Assembly (NCBI GenBank): GCA_012728375.1
Contig: JAAYFF010000039.1
Span: forward strand, 1 to 64,000
Reading direction: 5' to 3'
Length of the DNA stretch: 64,000 nt
Origin: Bacillota bacterium
GTDB lineage: Bacteria; Bacillota; Dethiobacteria; DTU022; UBA8154
Notes under the pieces: model-generated
Told to the model about the DNA's origin: nothing
Databases searched by the model: none
Seen by the model: the letters and a program-made list of their open reading frames with translations, nothing else
In this document: positions 17,187 to 23,408 of the stretch, one piece after another
Layout of the letters: every line of letters begins with the position of its first letter
Numbering within the stretch: position 1 is the stretch's first letter
Program-made: the position numbers and the translations under genes

Positions 17187-17330
17187 GCCCTCCTGCTGCG
17201 GCAAGAAGGCACATCTCATTCCCTCTGTACCTTCCGTCCCAGTCCTCTTCGGCTCCAGGCAGAATCAATATAGAAAGAAAAACCTCTTCTTGTATCTATC
17301 ACCGGGTGCAGGACTGAAGTTCCCACCCCA
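17187..17330 (-). promoter_or_regulatory. Possible structured leader of the pantothenate operon
   Basis: About 170 bases lie between the probable transcription start and the first pan gene. On the - strand CAGTCCT near the 5' end can pair with AGGACTG about 70 bases later. A 10 bp hairpin GCCTTCTTGC-CGCA-GCAGGAGGGC (17187-17210, including G-U pairs) sits 31 bases before the ATG and is followed by a T-rich stretch. An attenuator or pathway-sensing RNA is possible; 'pan' RNA motifs are known before panB in some Firmicutes, but a match was not established. Confidence 0.4.
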
Positions 17331-17390: not shown

Positions 17391-18392
17391 TTACCATTTA
17401 TCTTTTAAAAGCTCAACCAAGAGAGAGAATCCGCCCTCAATATCATTAAGATCCACCATCTCTCCGGGAGTATGGATATACCGGCAAGGAATAGAAAGGG
17501 CGCCGCTGGGCACTCCTTCCCTGGAAAGGTGGATGCTGCCGGCATCAGTCCCGCCCCGTTCCAGAACTTCGAGCTGAAAAGGAACATTTATCCTTTCTGC
17601 TGCCCGGATCATTCGCTGCACGACAGTTGGGTGGCAGATCACCGAAGAATCTTTAATTTTTATCGCGGGTCCCTTTCCAAGAGCCAGATCCATTTTAAAC
17701 TCCGGCTCAGGGGTATCACCCGTTCTGGTCACATCAACTGCCAGGGCATAATCGGGATTAAGCCGGTAGGAAACGGTTCTGGCTCCCCGCAAGCCCACTT
17801 CTTCCTGCGCGGTAAAAACAAAATATACTTCATTGGGTAAAGAAGCAGGGAGATTCTTTAAAACTTGAAGCAGCAGGGCGCAACCGGCGCGATTATCCAA
17901 AGACTTGGCGGTTACCCGTGGCCCCATGTGGTGAAAAGAGGGATAAAAGGTCGCGGTTTCTCCGATTTTTACCCTTTCCAAAGCTTCATCTTTGCTTTTT
18001 GCCCCAATATCAATATAAAACCTGTTAATGCCCGCAGTTTCTTTTTCCTTCAACTTTTCCCGGCCAATGATCCCTGCTGTTCCATTGTCGAAGATAACCT
18101 TTGTACCGGAAAGGATCTCGTTATTTACCCCGCCCACCGGGCTGAAGCGTAAAAAACCGTTCTCCTCGATAAAGGTAACCATCAGTCCAATCTCGTCCAT
18201 ATGCGCGGCAAGTAAAATCTTTTTCCCATCCGGGTTTCTTTTGACAACGATCAAATTGCCAAGAGCGTCCACAAACAGCTCATCGCCGTAAGCTTCCGCT
18301 TCTTTCCTGATAAAGGAACGAATTTTTTCCTCGCTACCCGACGGGCCGGATAGACCTGTCAGATCCTCCACTAATTTTAATAGCTCCGTCAT
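17391..18392 (-). CDS. M42-family metallo-aminopeptidase (paralogue 1 of 3)
   Basis: A cytoplasmic zinc/cobalt aminopeptidase of the glutamyl aminopeptidase/TET family, which trims peptides. Metal ligands are visible in order: His of AAHMDEIGLM, Asp of KSLDNRAGC, Glu-Glu of TAQEEVGLRG, Asp of LAVDVTRTGD and His of RYIHTPGEM. The ATG at 18392 is chosen because AAAGGGG lies upstream and family similarity begins there, though spacing is a little long. The protein has 333 residues. It is the third gene of a run of three paralogues with four- to ten-base gaps or overlaps, so it probably forms mixed or specialised TET-like particles with its neighbours. Exact specificity cannot be read. Confidence 0.9.
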   Translation of the reverse strand: MTELLKLVEDLTGLSGPSGSEEKIRSFIRKEAEAYGDELFVDALGNLIVVKRNPDGKKILLAAHMDEIGLMVTFIEENGFLRFSPVGGVNNEILSGTKVIFDNGTAGIIGREKLKEKETAGINRFYIDIGAKSKDEALERVKIGETATFYPSFHHMGPRVTAKSLDNRAGCALLLQVLKNLPASLPNEVYFVFTAQEEVGLRGARTVSYRLNPDYALAVDVTRTGDTPEPEFKMDLALGKGPAIKIKDSSVICHPTVVQRMIRAAERINVPFQLEVLERGGTDAGSIHLSREGVPSGALSIPCRYIHTPGEMVDLNDIEGGFSLLVELLKDKW

Positions 18393-18396
18393 TTTA

Positions 18397-19422
18397 TTAA
18401 ACCAACCCCTTTCCAGCAACCGATCTGATAAACCCTCCGGTTATTTCAACCAAGTTTCTTAAATCATCGAGGTTTATTAATGAGGCGGAGGAATGAAGAT
18501 AGCGGCAGGGAGTAGAGATTACCCCCGTCATTGTTCCGCCCCGGGCTTGAGAGATAGCTCCCGCATCGGTAAAATTGCCCAAAAAACGGCGAAATTGATA
18601 AGGTCTTTTTTCCTCTTCAGCTACCTCTATTAATCGCTCCAGCAAACGGGGATGGGTAATTACCGAGTCGTCCTTGAGCGTAAAAGCCGGCCCCTTTCCC
18701 AGGACAGTAGCAGTGTCATGCTCTTTAACTTCCGCCACATCGGCTGCGGCAGTAGTCTCAATTACAAGGGCAATCTTGGGGTTAACGCGGTAGGCAGCTA
18801 CTTTTGCACCGCGCATGCCGATTTCCTCCTGTACTGTAAAAACAGCAGTAAATCCGCAATCATGCTTTCTGCTCAGCAATTCCAGAAGTGCAGCGCAGCC
18901 GGCACGATTATCCAGTGCTTTTCCTTTAAAAACGTTTCCCCAAATCTCCGCCTTTGTATCAAAGGAAACAAAATCGCCCGGCTTAACTACTTTCTCGGCC
19001 TCTTCCTTATTTTTTGCACCGATATCAATGTACAGTTCATCGACAGTCAAAGCCTTTTCCCGCTCTCCCTTTTTTTGTAAATGGATTGCTTTCGACCCGA
19101 TAACTCCGGGGATGCCTTCCTTTCCTATCCTTACCGGTTTGCTGATCAGGCTTCTTTCATCGATGCCCCCGACCTTGTAAAAGCGCAGGTGGCCGCTTTT
19201 TTCCACAGATGATACCATCAAACCCACTTCATCCATATGGGCAGTAATCATCAGCCCCGGATCTTCATTTTTCCTCTGCCCTTCTTTGAGGGCAAAAAGG
19301 TTACCCATTGAATCGGTAAAATGTTTTATCCCCATCTCCAAAAGTTTTTCCCGGACAAAGTTTCTTACCTTTGTTTCGTCTCCGGAAACACCGTGTCTTT
19401 CAGACAGCTCTTTTAAAAACAT
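18397..19422 (-). CDS. M42-family metallo-aminopeptidase (paralogue 2 of 3)
   Basis: Middle member of the M42 run, 341 residues. It keeps His (ITAHMDEVGLM), Asp (KALDNRAGC), Glu-Glu (TVQEEIGMRG) and His (RYLHSSASL). The fourth ligand position has Glu (LVIETTAAAD) where both neighbours have Asp; Glu occurs in some M42 subfamilies, so this suggests a different substrate class rather than loss of activity. GGAGGG lies before the ATG, which overlaps the upstream paralogue by ten bases. Confidence 0.9.
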   Translation of the reverse strand: MFLKELSERHGVSGDETKVRNFVREKLLEMGIKHFTDSMGNLFALKEGQRKNEDPGLMITAHMDEVGLMVSSVEKSGHLRFYKVGGIDERSLISKPVRIGKEGIPGVIGSKAIHLQKKGEREKALTVDELYIDIGAKNKEEAEKVVKPGDFVSFDTKAEIWGNVFKGKALDNRAGCAALLELLSRKHDCGFTAVFTVQEEIGMRGAKVAAYRVNPKIALVIETTAAADVAEVKEHDTATVLGKGPAFTLKDDSVITHPRLLERLIEVAEEEKRPYQFRRFLGNFTDAGAISQARGGTMTGVISTPCRYLHSSASLINLDDLRNLVEITGGFIRSVAGKGLV

Positions 19423-20465
19423 GACAAACCCTCCACAAAAGAACGGCTTAAATCAGCAATAAAGTAAGCCAGCAATCTGCCGGCGCTCCTGATATCTTCC
19501 AGATCAAGGAGCTCAACCGATGTATGCATATAACGCAAAGGGATAGAAAGGAGTCCTGCAGGAACACCTTCCAGGCTTACTTGAATAGCCCGGGCATCAG
19601 TTCCTGTCGGTCCGGGTGAGAAGTCCTTCTGAACAGGCAACTGATATTCACGGGCTGTTTCATGCAATTTTTCAGCAATCCGGGGATGAATATTCGGCCC
19701 GTAAGTTATAACCGGACCTTTTCCCAGGGGCGATACTTCATGTTCTGCAGCTCCGGGAAAAGAACCGTGGCAGACATCAATGGCGATGCCGAGGTCAGGG
19801 GCAATCCCGAAAGTTGAAACGACCGCCCCCCTTGTTCCGACCTCTTCCTGAACCGAGGCCACCATGAAAACTTCGGCCCTGTGGCGAAGCCGGGCAAGCT
19901 CTGTGGCGCACTGCCATAAAACAGCCACGCCGGCCCTGTCATCCAGGGCTTTTCCCGCCCTGCACTCTCCCTGCAGGGAAAGAAAATTTCTTCTTATTGC
20001 AGCAACAGTTCCAACGGGAACTTTTTCGCGCAACTCCTCCTTTGGAAGGCCTGTATCAATAAACAGATCCTCCATCTTAACCGCTTTGCCTTTTTCTTTT
20101 TCTTTCTGCAGATGCGCGGGCTTGAAGCCAATTAATCCGTATACCGGCTCCCGCCCGTAAAGGGTAACCTCCTGGCCGGGTAAAGTGCGCGGATCGAAGC
20201 CTCCAAGGGAAGTAAATTTTAAAAAGCCCTTCTCATCCATCATGGTAACCATTAAACCAATTTCGTCCATATGGGCACAGAGCATCACCCTTGGGGGATC
20301 CTCTCCCCTTCCTCTTTTATAAAAAAAACAATTACCCAGGTTGTCTTTTTTAACTTCATCGACAAGGGGCGAAAAAGCCCCGGCCAGAAAACTGCCAAGC
20401 GCGTCCTCATATCCTGAAACCCCGTCTTTTTGGCTTATTTCCTGCAAAAAGGAATGCAAATTCAT
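19413..20465 (-). CDS. M42-family metallo-aminopeptidase (paralogue 3 of 3)
   Basis: First gene of the M42 run, 350 residues. Ligands: His (LCAHMDEIGLM), Asp (KALDDRAGV), Glu-Glu (SVQEEVGTRG), Asp (IAIDVCHGSF) and His (RYMHTSVEL). GGGAGGG precedes the ATG. The three proteins are clearly related but far from identical, so the duplications are old. No signal peptide is seen, so the role is intracellular peptide breakdown, fitting an amino-acid or peptide-using anaerobe. Confidence 0.9.
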   Translation of the reverse strand: MNLHSFLQEISQKDGVSGYEDALGSFLAGAFSPLVDEVKKDNLGNCFFYKRGRGEDPPRVMLCAHMDEIGLMVTMMDEKGFLKFTSLGGFDPRTLPGQEVTLYGREPVYGLIGFKPAHLQKEKEKGKAVKMEDLFIDTGLPKEELREKVPVGTVAAIRRNFLSLQGECRAGKALDDRAGVAVLWQCATELARLRHRAEVFMVASVQEEVGTRGAVVSTFGIAPDLGIAIDVCHGSFPGAAEHEVSPLGKGPVITYGPNIHPRIAEKLHETAREYQLPVQKDFSPGPTGTDARAIQVSLEGVPAGLLSIPLRYMHTSVELLDLEDIRSAGRLLAYFIADLSRSFVEGLSCF

Positions 20466-20546: not shown

Positions 20547-21650
20547 TTATCCAAACGGTTTTTGTTTTTCCAGAGCATTCCGCAGCCCGGAAGTAAGCCG
20601 GTAAACTTTTTCCGCCTGAGCTTCGCTTAAAGTTGCGGTTCCGCAGCTCGGCGTAATCATATACTGCTTTCTAAGCAACTCCGCTGCAACTCCCCTTTTA
20701 GAAAGGCGTTCGATTCCATGAAAAAATTTCTCTTGCAAAGTAGCGATTTCTTCACTTTCAACAGCAGTTCCCGAGGTTGGGACCAGACCCCAGGCCAGAA
20801 CACCGCCTCTTTTTAAAAAAGAATCAGCTTCTTCAGCATAAACCAAGAGGGAGTCAAAATATGCATATGCATCAAAATTGACAATATCAAAAGGAAGGTT
20901 AAAAAGAACAGACCAGTCAACCCCTGAACAACAATGGACTCCTGCAATACCTCCTTCCTCCCGGATGGCAAGAATAATTTCCTCCAGGCTGGCGGAAATA
21001 TCCTCGGCCGAAAGGGATGCATATGCTGATTGCCCAAATGAAAGCAGAGCCGGCTCATCAAGAAAGATAACCACCGGAAGTGAAAACTTTTTTAAGGCTC
21101 TGATCTGAAACCTGGCCTGCAAGGCTAAACTTTTAACAAGAATATCGCGCAAATTATTGTGATAAAAAGAAGCCTTTCCATCCCCTGAAGTTACCTGTAA
21201 ACCAAGAGAAAGGGGTCCGCTGACCTGCCCCTTAATAAAAAGAGGTTTTACTATTTGAGAAGACCAATCTTCCTCTAAAAATGAATAAAAACCTCTGGCC
21301 CCGTTGCGGGGAAAAGCGAATAACTCAATAACCCGCTCTTCGTTCTCTGCACCCTCCTGGGCTTCAAGATAGAGCTCATAAAAGGCTTGCTCCCTTTCCG
21401 GCCAGTCCTCTTCCATATCATAAAAAAAAAGGGCTTCCCCCTTTTTTAACCCCATAATTTTTAATTTAATCAGCGGGGCTAAATACTGCCTGGCAAAACC
21501 TTCTTCACCACCAAGCCTCGGCAGCTGCGGCCAGTGGGGACCGCATAAAAGATTTTCTTTGATTAACTGGAGGGCTGCAGAAATCTCCTGATGAGGCATA
21601 CTGCCGATTCCTGTTGCAGAGCCGTAAAGAAATTCCTTCTCCGGGGACAT
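20547..21650 (-). CDS. MetE C-terminal-domain protein (zinc methyltransferase-like)
   Basis: A stand-alone TIM-barrel protein of 367 residues resembling the catalytic half of cobalamin-independent methionine synthase and uroporphyrinogen decarboxylase-like enzymes. Zinc-ligand positions resemble His-x-Cys (GVHCCSG) and a late Cys (ITPSCGTATLSE). The third MetE ligand, a Glu, may be replaced by Asp in IVNFDAYAY. The folate-binding N-terminal half of MetE is missing. Such core proteins can take methyl groups from corrinoid proteins to make methionine; that role is a guess here. The ATG at 21650 follows GGGAGGT by eight bases. It lies 36 bases after cimA, probably in the same transcript. Confidence 0.72.
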   Translation of the reverse strand: MSPEKEFLYGSATGIGSMPHQEISAALQLIKENLLCGPHWPQLPRLGGEEGFARQYLAPLIKLKIMGLKKGEALFFYDMEEDWPEREQAFYELYLEAQEGAENEERVIELFAFPRNGARGFYSFLEEDWSSQIVKPLFIKGQVSGPLSLGLQVTSGDGKASFYHNNLRDILVKSLALQARFQIRALKKFSLPVVIFLDEPALLSFGQSAYASLSAEDISASLEEIILAIREEGGIAGVHCCSGVDWSVLFNLPFDIVNFDAYAYFDSLLVYAEEADSFLKRGGVLAWGLVPTSGTAVESEEIATLQEKFFHGIERLSKRGVAAELLRKQYMITPSCGTATLSEAQAEKVYRLTSGLRNALEKQKPFG

Positions 21651-21686
21651 AGCAATCGACCTCCCGTCCAATCGTAAAACTTTGCT

Positions 21687-23339
21687 CTATTTTGCTTCAA
21701 TGCGCTCTTCCTGCCAGGCCAGCTCCTGTAAGGCCTTTCTAACTTCCTCCACAGAGGAGCTGCGATCGCAGAGCAGCCCGTATTCAATACTGTCGACCAA
21801 AGCTATCCAGCTGGCTTCAATAATATTTTCAGAAACACCCACTGTCCCCCATTTCTTCTTTTCGTTCTGCGAGGTAATTAGAACCCTTACCCTTGCAGCT
21901 GTACCGTCTTTTCCATCCATAACCCGAACTTTATAATCGATTAATTTCATTTTCTTAATTTCAGGATAAAATTCTTCCAGCGCTTTGCGCAAAGCATTAT
22001 CCATAGCGTTAACCGGGCCGTTTCCCTCCGCAGCCGTGTGGACAATGCGGTTTCCTACCCTGACTTTAATGGTGGCTTCAACGTAAAGCTCTTCTCCCTG
22101 CCTCTGCTTATCAACAATAATACGAATCCCCTCAAGTTTAAAAAGGGGTTTATACGTGTTTAACGTCTTCCAGATCAGCAATTCAAAAGACCCGTCAGCG
22201 CCTTCAAACTGGTATCCTTCATGCTCCATCTTTTTAAGATTGTTTAAAACTTCTCTCGCTTCGGGCAAATTGTTCTTAAGGAGCTCTATTTTATTTTCCC
22301 TGGCTTTAAAAAGGATATTGCTTTTTCCGGCCAATTCCGAGACGAGCACTCTTCTTCTGTTTCCCACTTCTTCAGGATTGGCATGCTCGTATGTTTGCGT
22401 ATGCTTTGTTACCGCATCAACGTGAATACCGCCTTTATGGGTAAAAGCATTTCTTCCGACGTAAGGCTGGTTATCCTGAGGGATCATATTAGCCAGCTCC
22501 GCGACAATCTTGGACATTTTGGTAAGCTTCTTCAACTGCCAGGGCTTTAATTTCTGGAAATTAAGCTTGAAGTGAATATTGGGTATAATAACGCAGAGGT
22601 CCGCGTTGCCGCATCGTTCCCCATAGCCGTTAATTGTTCCCTGAACGTGAACAGCACCGCTTTGCAGGGCAATTATCGAATTGGCAATTCCCATTCCGCT
22701 ATCATTATGGGCATGGATTCCCAGGGGAATATCCAGCTCTTTTTTTACTTCCTGTATAATCTTCTGGACATCAAGGGGCATTGTTCCGCCATTAGTGTCG
22801 CATAAAACCACGGTATCAGCTCCGTTTTCCGCTGCCACCCTGATGGTATCCAGTGTATAGCGCGGATTGCTTCGATATCCGTCAAAAAAATGTTCTGCAT
22901 CAAAAATAACTCTGCGGCCCTTCTTTTTCAAGTAAAAAACTGTATCACCAATCATGGCCAAATTTTCTTCCATTGTGGTGCCCAGAGCATGAGAAACATG
23001 AAAATCCCAGCTCTTGCCGACCACGGTAACCACCGGCGTCCTGGCTTCCAACAAGGCTCTGACATTGTCATCGGAGGAAACATCGGAATGCGGACGCCTG
23101 GTACTGCCGAAAGCAGCTATTTTAATCTGCTGAAGGGGTATCTCTTGAATACGGCTGAAAAACTCCATATCCTTAGGGTTTGAACCCGGCCATCCACCCT
23201 CAATACAATCGATCCCCATCTCATCCAGCAGTTTAACAATCTGAATTTTATCTGCAACAGAAAAGGAAATTCCTTCTCTCTGGGCGCCGTCCCGCAATGT
23301 TGTATCATAAATTTCTACACTTTTAATAGGCGTTACCAT
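21687..23339 (-). CDS. cimA: (R)-citramalate synthase
   Basis: CimA condenses pyruvate and acetyl-CoA to citramalate, opening a threonine-independent route to isoleucine. The HMGL-like catalytic barrel has EIYDTTLRDGAQREG near residue 10 and the metal-binding IHAHNDSGMGIAN. A LeuA-type dimer/regulatory domain at the C-terminus (from about residue 400) provides feedback control. The length of 550 residues matches the long CimA form. The ATG at 23339 is ten bases after GGAGG; an upstream TTG is too close to that site. A good promoter lies upstream. 2-Isopropylmalate or homocitrate synthase are less likely given the long form and sequence pattern. Confidence 0.9.
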   Translation of the reverse strand: MVTPIKSVEIYDTTLRDGAQREGISFSVADKIQIVKLLDEMGIDCIEGGWPGSNPKDMEFFSRIQEIPLQQIKIAAFGSTRRPHSDVSSDDNVRALLEARTPVVTVVGKSWDFHVSHALGTTMEENLAMIGDTVFYLKKKGRRVIFDAEHFFDGYRSNPRYTLDTIRVAAENGADTVVLCDTNGGTMPLDVQKIIQEVKKELDIPLGIHAHNDSGMGIANSIIALQSGAVHVQGTINGYGERCGNADLCVIIPNIHFKLNFQKLKPWQLKKLTKMSKIVAELANMIPQDNQPYVGRNAFTHKGGIHVDAVTKHTQTYEHANPEEVGNRRRVLVSELAGKSNILFKARENKIELLKNNLPEAREVLNNLKKMEHEGYQFEGADGSFELLIWKTLNTYKPLFKLEGIRIIVDKQRQGEELYVEATIKVRVGNRIVHTAAEGNGPVNAMDNALRKALEEFYPEIKKMKLIDYKVRVMDGKDGTAARVRVLITSQNEKKKWGTVGVSENIIEASWIALVDSIEYGLLCDRSSSVEEVRKALQELAWQEERIEAK

Positions 23340-23408
23340 CCACAAGAACCTCCACAGGCATCAACGTAATAATAATTAAAAAGATATTATAAGGTAATAA
23401 TTAGAGAT

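Follow-up and report, generated by a model that had tools for sequence, protein, structure and literature searches.

The 64,000-nucleotide window analyzed here (positions 1 to 64,000 of contig JAAYFF010000039.1, assembly GCA_012728375.1, from a Bacillota bacterium of the UBA8154 lineage) contains three consecutive genes of the M42 peptidase family, designated A, B and C from upstream to downstream. Comparisons across genomes identify A-B-C as a conserved, co-inherited set (a triad) of three predicted TET-type aminopeptidases with different active sites. We propose that the three form one ancient, co-inherited peptide-degradation system with complementary sites, housed in TET particles that are at least partly mixed; our probability for this reading is about 0.5.

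The sequence-only reading of this region had described three related but divergent M42 genes in a row, joined by overlaps or a four-base gap, and the description holds. All three products score far above the curated cut-off of Peptidase_M42 (PF05343, 23.2 bits; Table 1), share 36–40% identity in pairwise comparisons and represent the sole M42 genes of the source genome (2.38-Mb assembly, 96% complete). Genes A and B share 10 nucleotides, and C, if read from its ATG, lies 4 bp from B; an alternative longer form of C would start at a TTG at 18419 and would then overlap B. Triad loci were collected by a genome-contig search with B (80 of 119 confirmed loci kept) and supplemented with 20 class-genome regions, and together these contained 64 loci with a complete, ordered A-B-C set; as they partly come from B-based searches, these loci are biased toward those holding B. 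The overlap between the A stop and the B start is exactly 10 nucleotides in 47 of the 64 triads, and the B-C distance scatters around zero. The proposal that the paralogues are co-translated is thus borne out as far as the overlap of the reading frames is concerned, and from this overlap we infer that translation is coupled and that the subunits are made together in similar amounts. Counts from a promoter and terminator scan barely exceeded the shuffled expectation and were not used as evidence.

Two trees were calculated, one with FastTree and one with IQ-TREE (LG+R5, 211 sequences). In both trees every A, B and C protein falls into the group of its own letter, with no mixing. Support in the IQ-TREE analysis (Shimodaira–Hasegawa-like approximate likelihood ratio test/ultrafast bootstrap) is 89.9/99 for A, 95.8/100 for B and 100/100 for C. 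A Thermotoga maritima chain lies inside each IQ-TREE group (1vho in A, 2fvg in B and 3isx in C), which assigns each window gene to one of the TM1048–TM1050-type subfamilies; the smallest FastTree group enclosing every B lacks 2fvg. Foldseek titles give 2fvg as tm1049 and 3isx as TM1050, and we take 1vho to be TM1048. The chain 1vhe, presumably YsdC of Bacillus subtilis, is outside A, B and C in the IQ-TREE tree. The resemblance of the T. maritima proteins to the triad extends to the active-site signatures described below, with Glu in TM1049 and no loop histidine in TM1050. The T. maritima proteins are known here from Protein Data Bank (PDB) sequences (1vho, 2fvg and 3isx/4p6y), and the adjacency of their genes is deduced from consecutive locus numbers, which appear together in one passage of a published report (PMC4517919). 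These proteins are often labelled endoglucanases, and TmPep1050 is the only one for which a characterization was found.

With Thermotoga counted on the basis of these PDB sequences and locus numbers, the triad is present in at least four phyla, represented by Bacillota, Chloroflexota, a Caldisericum genome and Thermotoga; triad-bearing lineages include Clostridia, Tissierellia, Halanaerobiales, Desulfosporosinus, one Caldisericum genome and Anaerolineales. Because the A, B and C clades are separate and each has a T. maritima member, the three genes are, on phylogenetic grounds, ancient subfamilies and not products of a local duplication. A recent tandem duplication that left redundant copies would account for the adjacency of the genes and their common family, but the window proteins are 28–84% identical (mostly >40%) to same-letter proteins elsewhere, compared with 36–40% among themselves. 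Such a duplication is ruled out by this divergence and refuted by the tree, in which the separate clades each reach Thermotoga, and we give it next to no credence.

The distribution of the triad was surveyed with one profile per subfamily run over 199 genomes of the phylum at E ≤ 1e-118. All three genes were detected in 71 genomes, C only in two, A and C in one, and none in 125. The complete set is therefore found in 71 of the 74 C-bearing genomes, and the three exceptions are at contig ends. Gene A is upstream and gene C downstream, on the same strand, for 71 of 72 B genes. Since the identical ordered trio recurs in 71 of 199 genomes, the gene order is not due to chance. Rows between 1e-105 and 1e-118 were excluded, as they mostly represent one generic M42 gene matched by several profiles, and otherwise a triad member picked up by a sister-subfamily profile. 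The counts are sensitive to profile thresholds and to draft genomes, and divergent members are missed at 1e-118 (the T. maritima C protein, with 387 bits, is near the limit). In Chloroflexota (B and C profiles, E ≤ 1e-110), C was found in 11 of 81 genomes and B in the same 11. Three tandem M42 genes are present in ten of these, and the eleventh has A-B and C on separate contigs; each of the 9 three-gene M42 loci retrieved from Chloroflexota was assigned to A-B-C. Among the genomes examined, C without A or B was seen only at contig ends, and A and B without C do occur.

The three proteins differ at the metal site. Glu222 of B occupies the M2 metal ligand position filled by Asp230 in A and Asp220 in C, in agreement with the earlier observation of Glu in place of Asp in the middle gene; we take this position to be Asp235 of Pyrococcus horikoshii TET2 (PhTET2). 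The metal and catalytic residues (H, D, E, E, D, H) are complete in A and C, and B differs only at M2. Two sets of triads were compared, a first set of 65 (window included) and a second set of 57, which give 120 distinct triads after removal of one cross-set repeat and one duplicate inside the first set. At the Asp235 position, the first set has Asp in 65/65 A and 65/65 C proteins and Glu in 63/65 B proteins; over the 120 distinct triads, Asp is invariant in A and C (120/120 each) and B has Glu in 109 and Asp in 11. The equivalents of PhTET2 His68, Asp70, Asp182, Glu212, Glu213 and His323 are intact in 65/65 A, 65/65 B and 64/65 C proteins of the first set, and a recount of the second set, which covered these ligands except Asp70, showed no change besides that at the Asp235 position.

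Glu is therefore a trait of the B subfamily and not a peculiarity of the window gene. As a strict hallmark of B it was weakened by the second locus set, since the 11 Asp-type B proteins include ten from Chloroflexota triads (loci L083, L092 and L167–L174 in our numbering) and one from a genome in the phylum survey (L199). The Glu of 2fvg and of two B-adjacent archaeal sequences (L076 and L081) suggests that Glu is ancestral in B and that the Chloroflexota have returned to Asp. The same Glu is found in 2fvg and in several single M42 genes, and B is accordingly counted as a variant M42 protein and not as an outsider to the family. A different explanation is that B is not an ordinary aminopeptidase, with Glu making it a carboxypeptidase, dipeptidase or deacylase that works in the same compartment. 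In the related M20 family, carboxypeptidases and deacylases have Glu at the M2-type position and aminopeptidases Asp; a literature search, one DapE paper included, did not confirm this association and found no clear statement on the meaning of Asp or Glu in clan MH. The contrast of Glu in 109/120 B proteins with invariant Asp in A and C is in line with a separate activity. On the other hand, the Asp-type B proteins keep the rest of the active site, the loop histidine discussed below is kept in every B, and Asp/Glu exchange in other M42 lineages (L086, L096 and L110) suggests that the change may be tolerated without altering function. We consider a different activity of B unlikely. D-type M42 enzymes are reported to show no carboxypeptidase or aminoacylase activity (PMC3511314), which has no bearing on B.

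The second signature that distinguishes the subfamilies is located in a mobile loop. In PhTET2 this loop contains a conserved histidine, His123, that lowers the Michaelis constant and may sit near the active site of the neighbouring subunit (PMC8993905). Among the 120 distinct triads, the loop histidine is found in 107 A proteins, in every B and in no C. The loop comprises 26 residues in 64/65 A and 63/65 B proteins and approximately 20 in C; a histidine elsewhere within the loop stretch occurs in 12/65 C proteins. In TM1050 the histidine is missing from a loop of full length, so histidine loss and loop shortening are separable. The equivalent of Asp94, a loop contact in PhTET2 (PMC8993905), is lost in 62/65 C proteins, and PhTET3 also lacks it. 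Divergence of the three active sites is supported; the sequence-only reading had noted neither the spread of Glu through nearly the whole B subfamily nor the missing loop histidine of C.

Complementation of C in trans by the loop histidine of A or B within a heterodimer was considered, because the homologous histidine of human DNPEP acts from the partner subunit (PMC3472314) and the same has been suggested for PhTET2. It was not adopted, given the loss of the Asp94 equivalent in most C proteins, and is also disfavoured by the use of homodimers as the mixing unit of the P. horikoshii particles and by the ability of TmPep1050 to work alone. It keeps some plausibility because PhTET3 lacks Asp94 as well and because YtoP-YsdC has been reported as a dimer between paralogues.

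Other variation was seen at the loop position. In nine Chloroflexota triads (L083 and L167–L174) A lacks the loop histidine and B has Asp at M2, such that the histidine is carried by B alone. In four relatives of the window locus (L034, L117, L121 and L122) A has Tyr or another residue in place of the histidine that the window A keeps. Single archaeal M42 genes from Woesearchaeota (L102) and Aenigmatarchaeota (L106), outside clade C, also lack a histidine at the aligned position.

Structure models agree with the family assignment. The AlphaFold models of B and C have predicted local distance difference test (pLDDT) values of 93.7 and 95.4 respectively; the top Foldseek match of C is TmPep1050 (4p6y), with a template modelling (TM) score of 0.94. 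Both models show the TET monomer fold, with a proteolytic and a PDZ-like domain, in comparisons with the dodecameric chains 9qr6, 1y0r and 5ds0 (TM-score ~0.9). The best solved relative is 2fvg for B and 4x8i, the lysyl aminopeptidase TET3, for A (241 bits). None of the proteins reaches the equivalog cut-offs for substrate class: A scores 265 bits against the archaeal lysyl aminopeptidase model NF040822 (cut-off 700), and A, B and C score 158, 168 and 167 bits against the glutamyl aminopeptidase model TIGR03107 (cut-off 469.7). The pocket motifs of A (GPNI.P-like and PTGTDA) are as in PhTET3, which prefers basic residues, and those of C (KD.SVICHP and GGTDAGAIH) as in PhTET2, which prefers neutral residues and Leu; the C-type TmPep1050 prefers Leu (PMC3511314). 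Transfer of the TET2 and TET3 specificities by orthology was rejected, because PhTET2 and PhTET3 form their own group apart from A and C, which leaves a resemblance of motifs.

From the observed gene identities, order, co-inheritance, frame overlap and active-site signatures we infer coupling, activity, specificities and co-assembly as follows. A, B and C would be made from one message as active two-metal TET-type aminopeptidases with different pockets, TET3-like (basic) in A, TET2-like (neutral/Leu) in C and probably of a distinct preference in B, and the trio would finish off peptides in the cytosol. The subunits would probably join, at least partly, in mixed TET particles with homodimers as building blocks, the mode of assembly of PhTET2 and PhTET3, and a peptide leaving one site would then meet other specificities in the same chamber. 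The idea of mixed particles has precedents. P. horikoshii TET2 and TET3, likewise M42 paralogues with different specificities, form 6:6 or 8:4 particles from homodimers, with different specificities at each apex and, in the 8:4 particle, with the PhTET3 homodimers on opposite ridges (PMC4220976), and such mixed particles are reported to have been identified in vivo (PMC4745047). B. subtilis YtoP and YsdC, bacterial M42 paralogues, are reported as a dimer based on in-cell crosslinking and AlphaFold-Multimer (PMC10090944; PDB 9a5r). Because these two pairs mix, co-assembly of A, B and C is plausible, and at least partial co-assembly appears to us slightly likelier than its absence. Both precedents differ from the triad: the archaeal system has two paralogues instead of three, in a clade of their own, and the presumed B. 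subtilis YsdC chain falls outside the three subfamilies. Residues that we take to belong to the PhTET2 interface (R217, R220, F224 and H248) were counted but not used, and they vary in known homododecamers too.

Several observations weigh against mixed particles. TmPep1050 is active alone and eluted as a probable dimer (PMC3511314). C is dispensable, because in four genomes that carry A and B but not C (L077, L078, L082 and L093, traced from records of Oscillospiraceae or other Clostridia) the M42 complement is exactly those two genes, with no third (4/4 checked). TmPep1050 is also said, in the title of a later paper, to undergo a dimer–dodecamer transition. In one Anaerolineales genome (L075) A is located away from B-C, B-like Glu enzymes occur in archaea with no triad nearby (L076 and L081), and PhTET2 and PhTET3 cluster with each other in the IQ-TREE tree and not with C and A. 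Finally, linked loss of the operon alone could generate the co-occurrence, including the 71/74 pattern. The operon might then serve only co-regulation and dosage, with three separate homomeric TET particles of complementary specificities. The solved M42 entries, which are mostly homomeric, also speak for separate particles, as do the loss in C of both the loop histidine and (62/65) the Asp94 equivalent, expected of a C-C dimer evolving alone, and the solo activity and two-gene genomes just described. However, the P. horikoshii and B. subtilis pairs show that M42 paralogues mix, and C without A or B was encountered only at contig ends. We hold separate homomers to be a serious possibility, if one short of even odds.

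A specific form of the mixed particle would place two AA, two BB and two CC homodimers along the six tetrahedral ridges, with like dimers opposite each other. Of 729 ridge colourings, 6 (a single one up to relabelling) bring all three kinds of site together at every apex, which forces a 4:4:4 composition. This three-component arrangement is a doubtful proposition; if true, each of the four chambers would contain a single site of each kind.

The neighbourhood outside the triad is only partly kept: of the 64 loci, 22 have the upstream gene and 18–20 the pan genes. Downstream of the triad are DUF2520, panB, panC and panD, and upstream is a gene that by eye resembles a uroporphyrinogen decarboxylase/methionine synthase-like protein. 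The pan motif located between C and DUF2520 suggests that the pan genes have a control of their own; it marks the boundary of the triad and is not part of it. A promoter-like match (17363-17335, reverse strand) lies directly before the pan motif; matches of this kind occur at close to the chance rate in this stretch. DUF2520, which shows linkage to pan genes, could act in pantothenate synthesis, perhaps as the ketopantoate reductase.

Table 1. Coordinates of the triad, its active-site features and adjacent elements in the window.
Feature	Position	Strand	Remarks
Gene A, M42 aminopeptidase, TM1048 subfamily	19413..20465	-	350 residues; PF05343 287 bits
Gene B, M42 aminopeptidase, TM1049 subfamily	18397..19422	-	341 residues; PF05343 313 bits
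Gene C, M42 aminopeptidase, TM1050 subfamily	17391..18392 (ATG start)	-	333 residues; PF05343 305 bits
Overlap of A end and B start, 10 nucleotides	19413..19422	-	read from sequence
Glu222 codon of B, M2 metal ligand position	18757..18759	-	A = D230, C = D220
His114 codon of B, loop histidine (PhTET2 His123 equivalent)	19081..19083	-	invariant in B alignment
His118 codon of A, loop histidine	20112..20114	-	alignment
Shortened C loop, ~20 residues versus 26, without histidine	18015..18074	-	strand borders in AlphaFold models
Pan motif RF01749, regulatory element of DUF2520-panBCD	17230..17329	-	46.7 bits, gathering threshold 36.2
374-residue gene directly upstream of triad	20547-21671	-	no Pfam match at 1e-8
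HMGL-like/LeuA_dimer gene, probably citramalate synthase	21687-23345	-	upstream of 374-residue gene

The M42 family and the T. maritima proteins are already known, as are TET particles and their mixed forms; the open-access literature yielded no account of a conserved three-gene unit of this kind or of its signatures (subscription journals were outside the search). Most work on TET peptidases has dealt with single gene products, and the mixed particles found described are limited to one archaeon, in detail, and one B. subtilis crosslinking case. A conserved, co-inherited trio in at least Bacillota, Chloroflexota, a Caldisericum genome and Thermotoga offers a natural system for probing mixed assembly across lineages, and argues for re-annotation of genes that are often named endoglucanase. 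Its natural variation separates the M2 carboxylate from the loop histidine, both thought important for TET catalysis, and the C subfamily does without the latter in all 120 triads. If the three-component arrangement is true, the chamber would have a division of labour among its sites, with B always and C never contributing a loop histidine, and with B adding a metal-site chemistry of its own.

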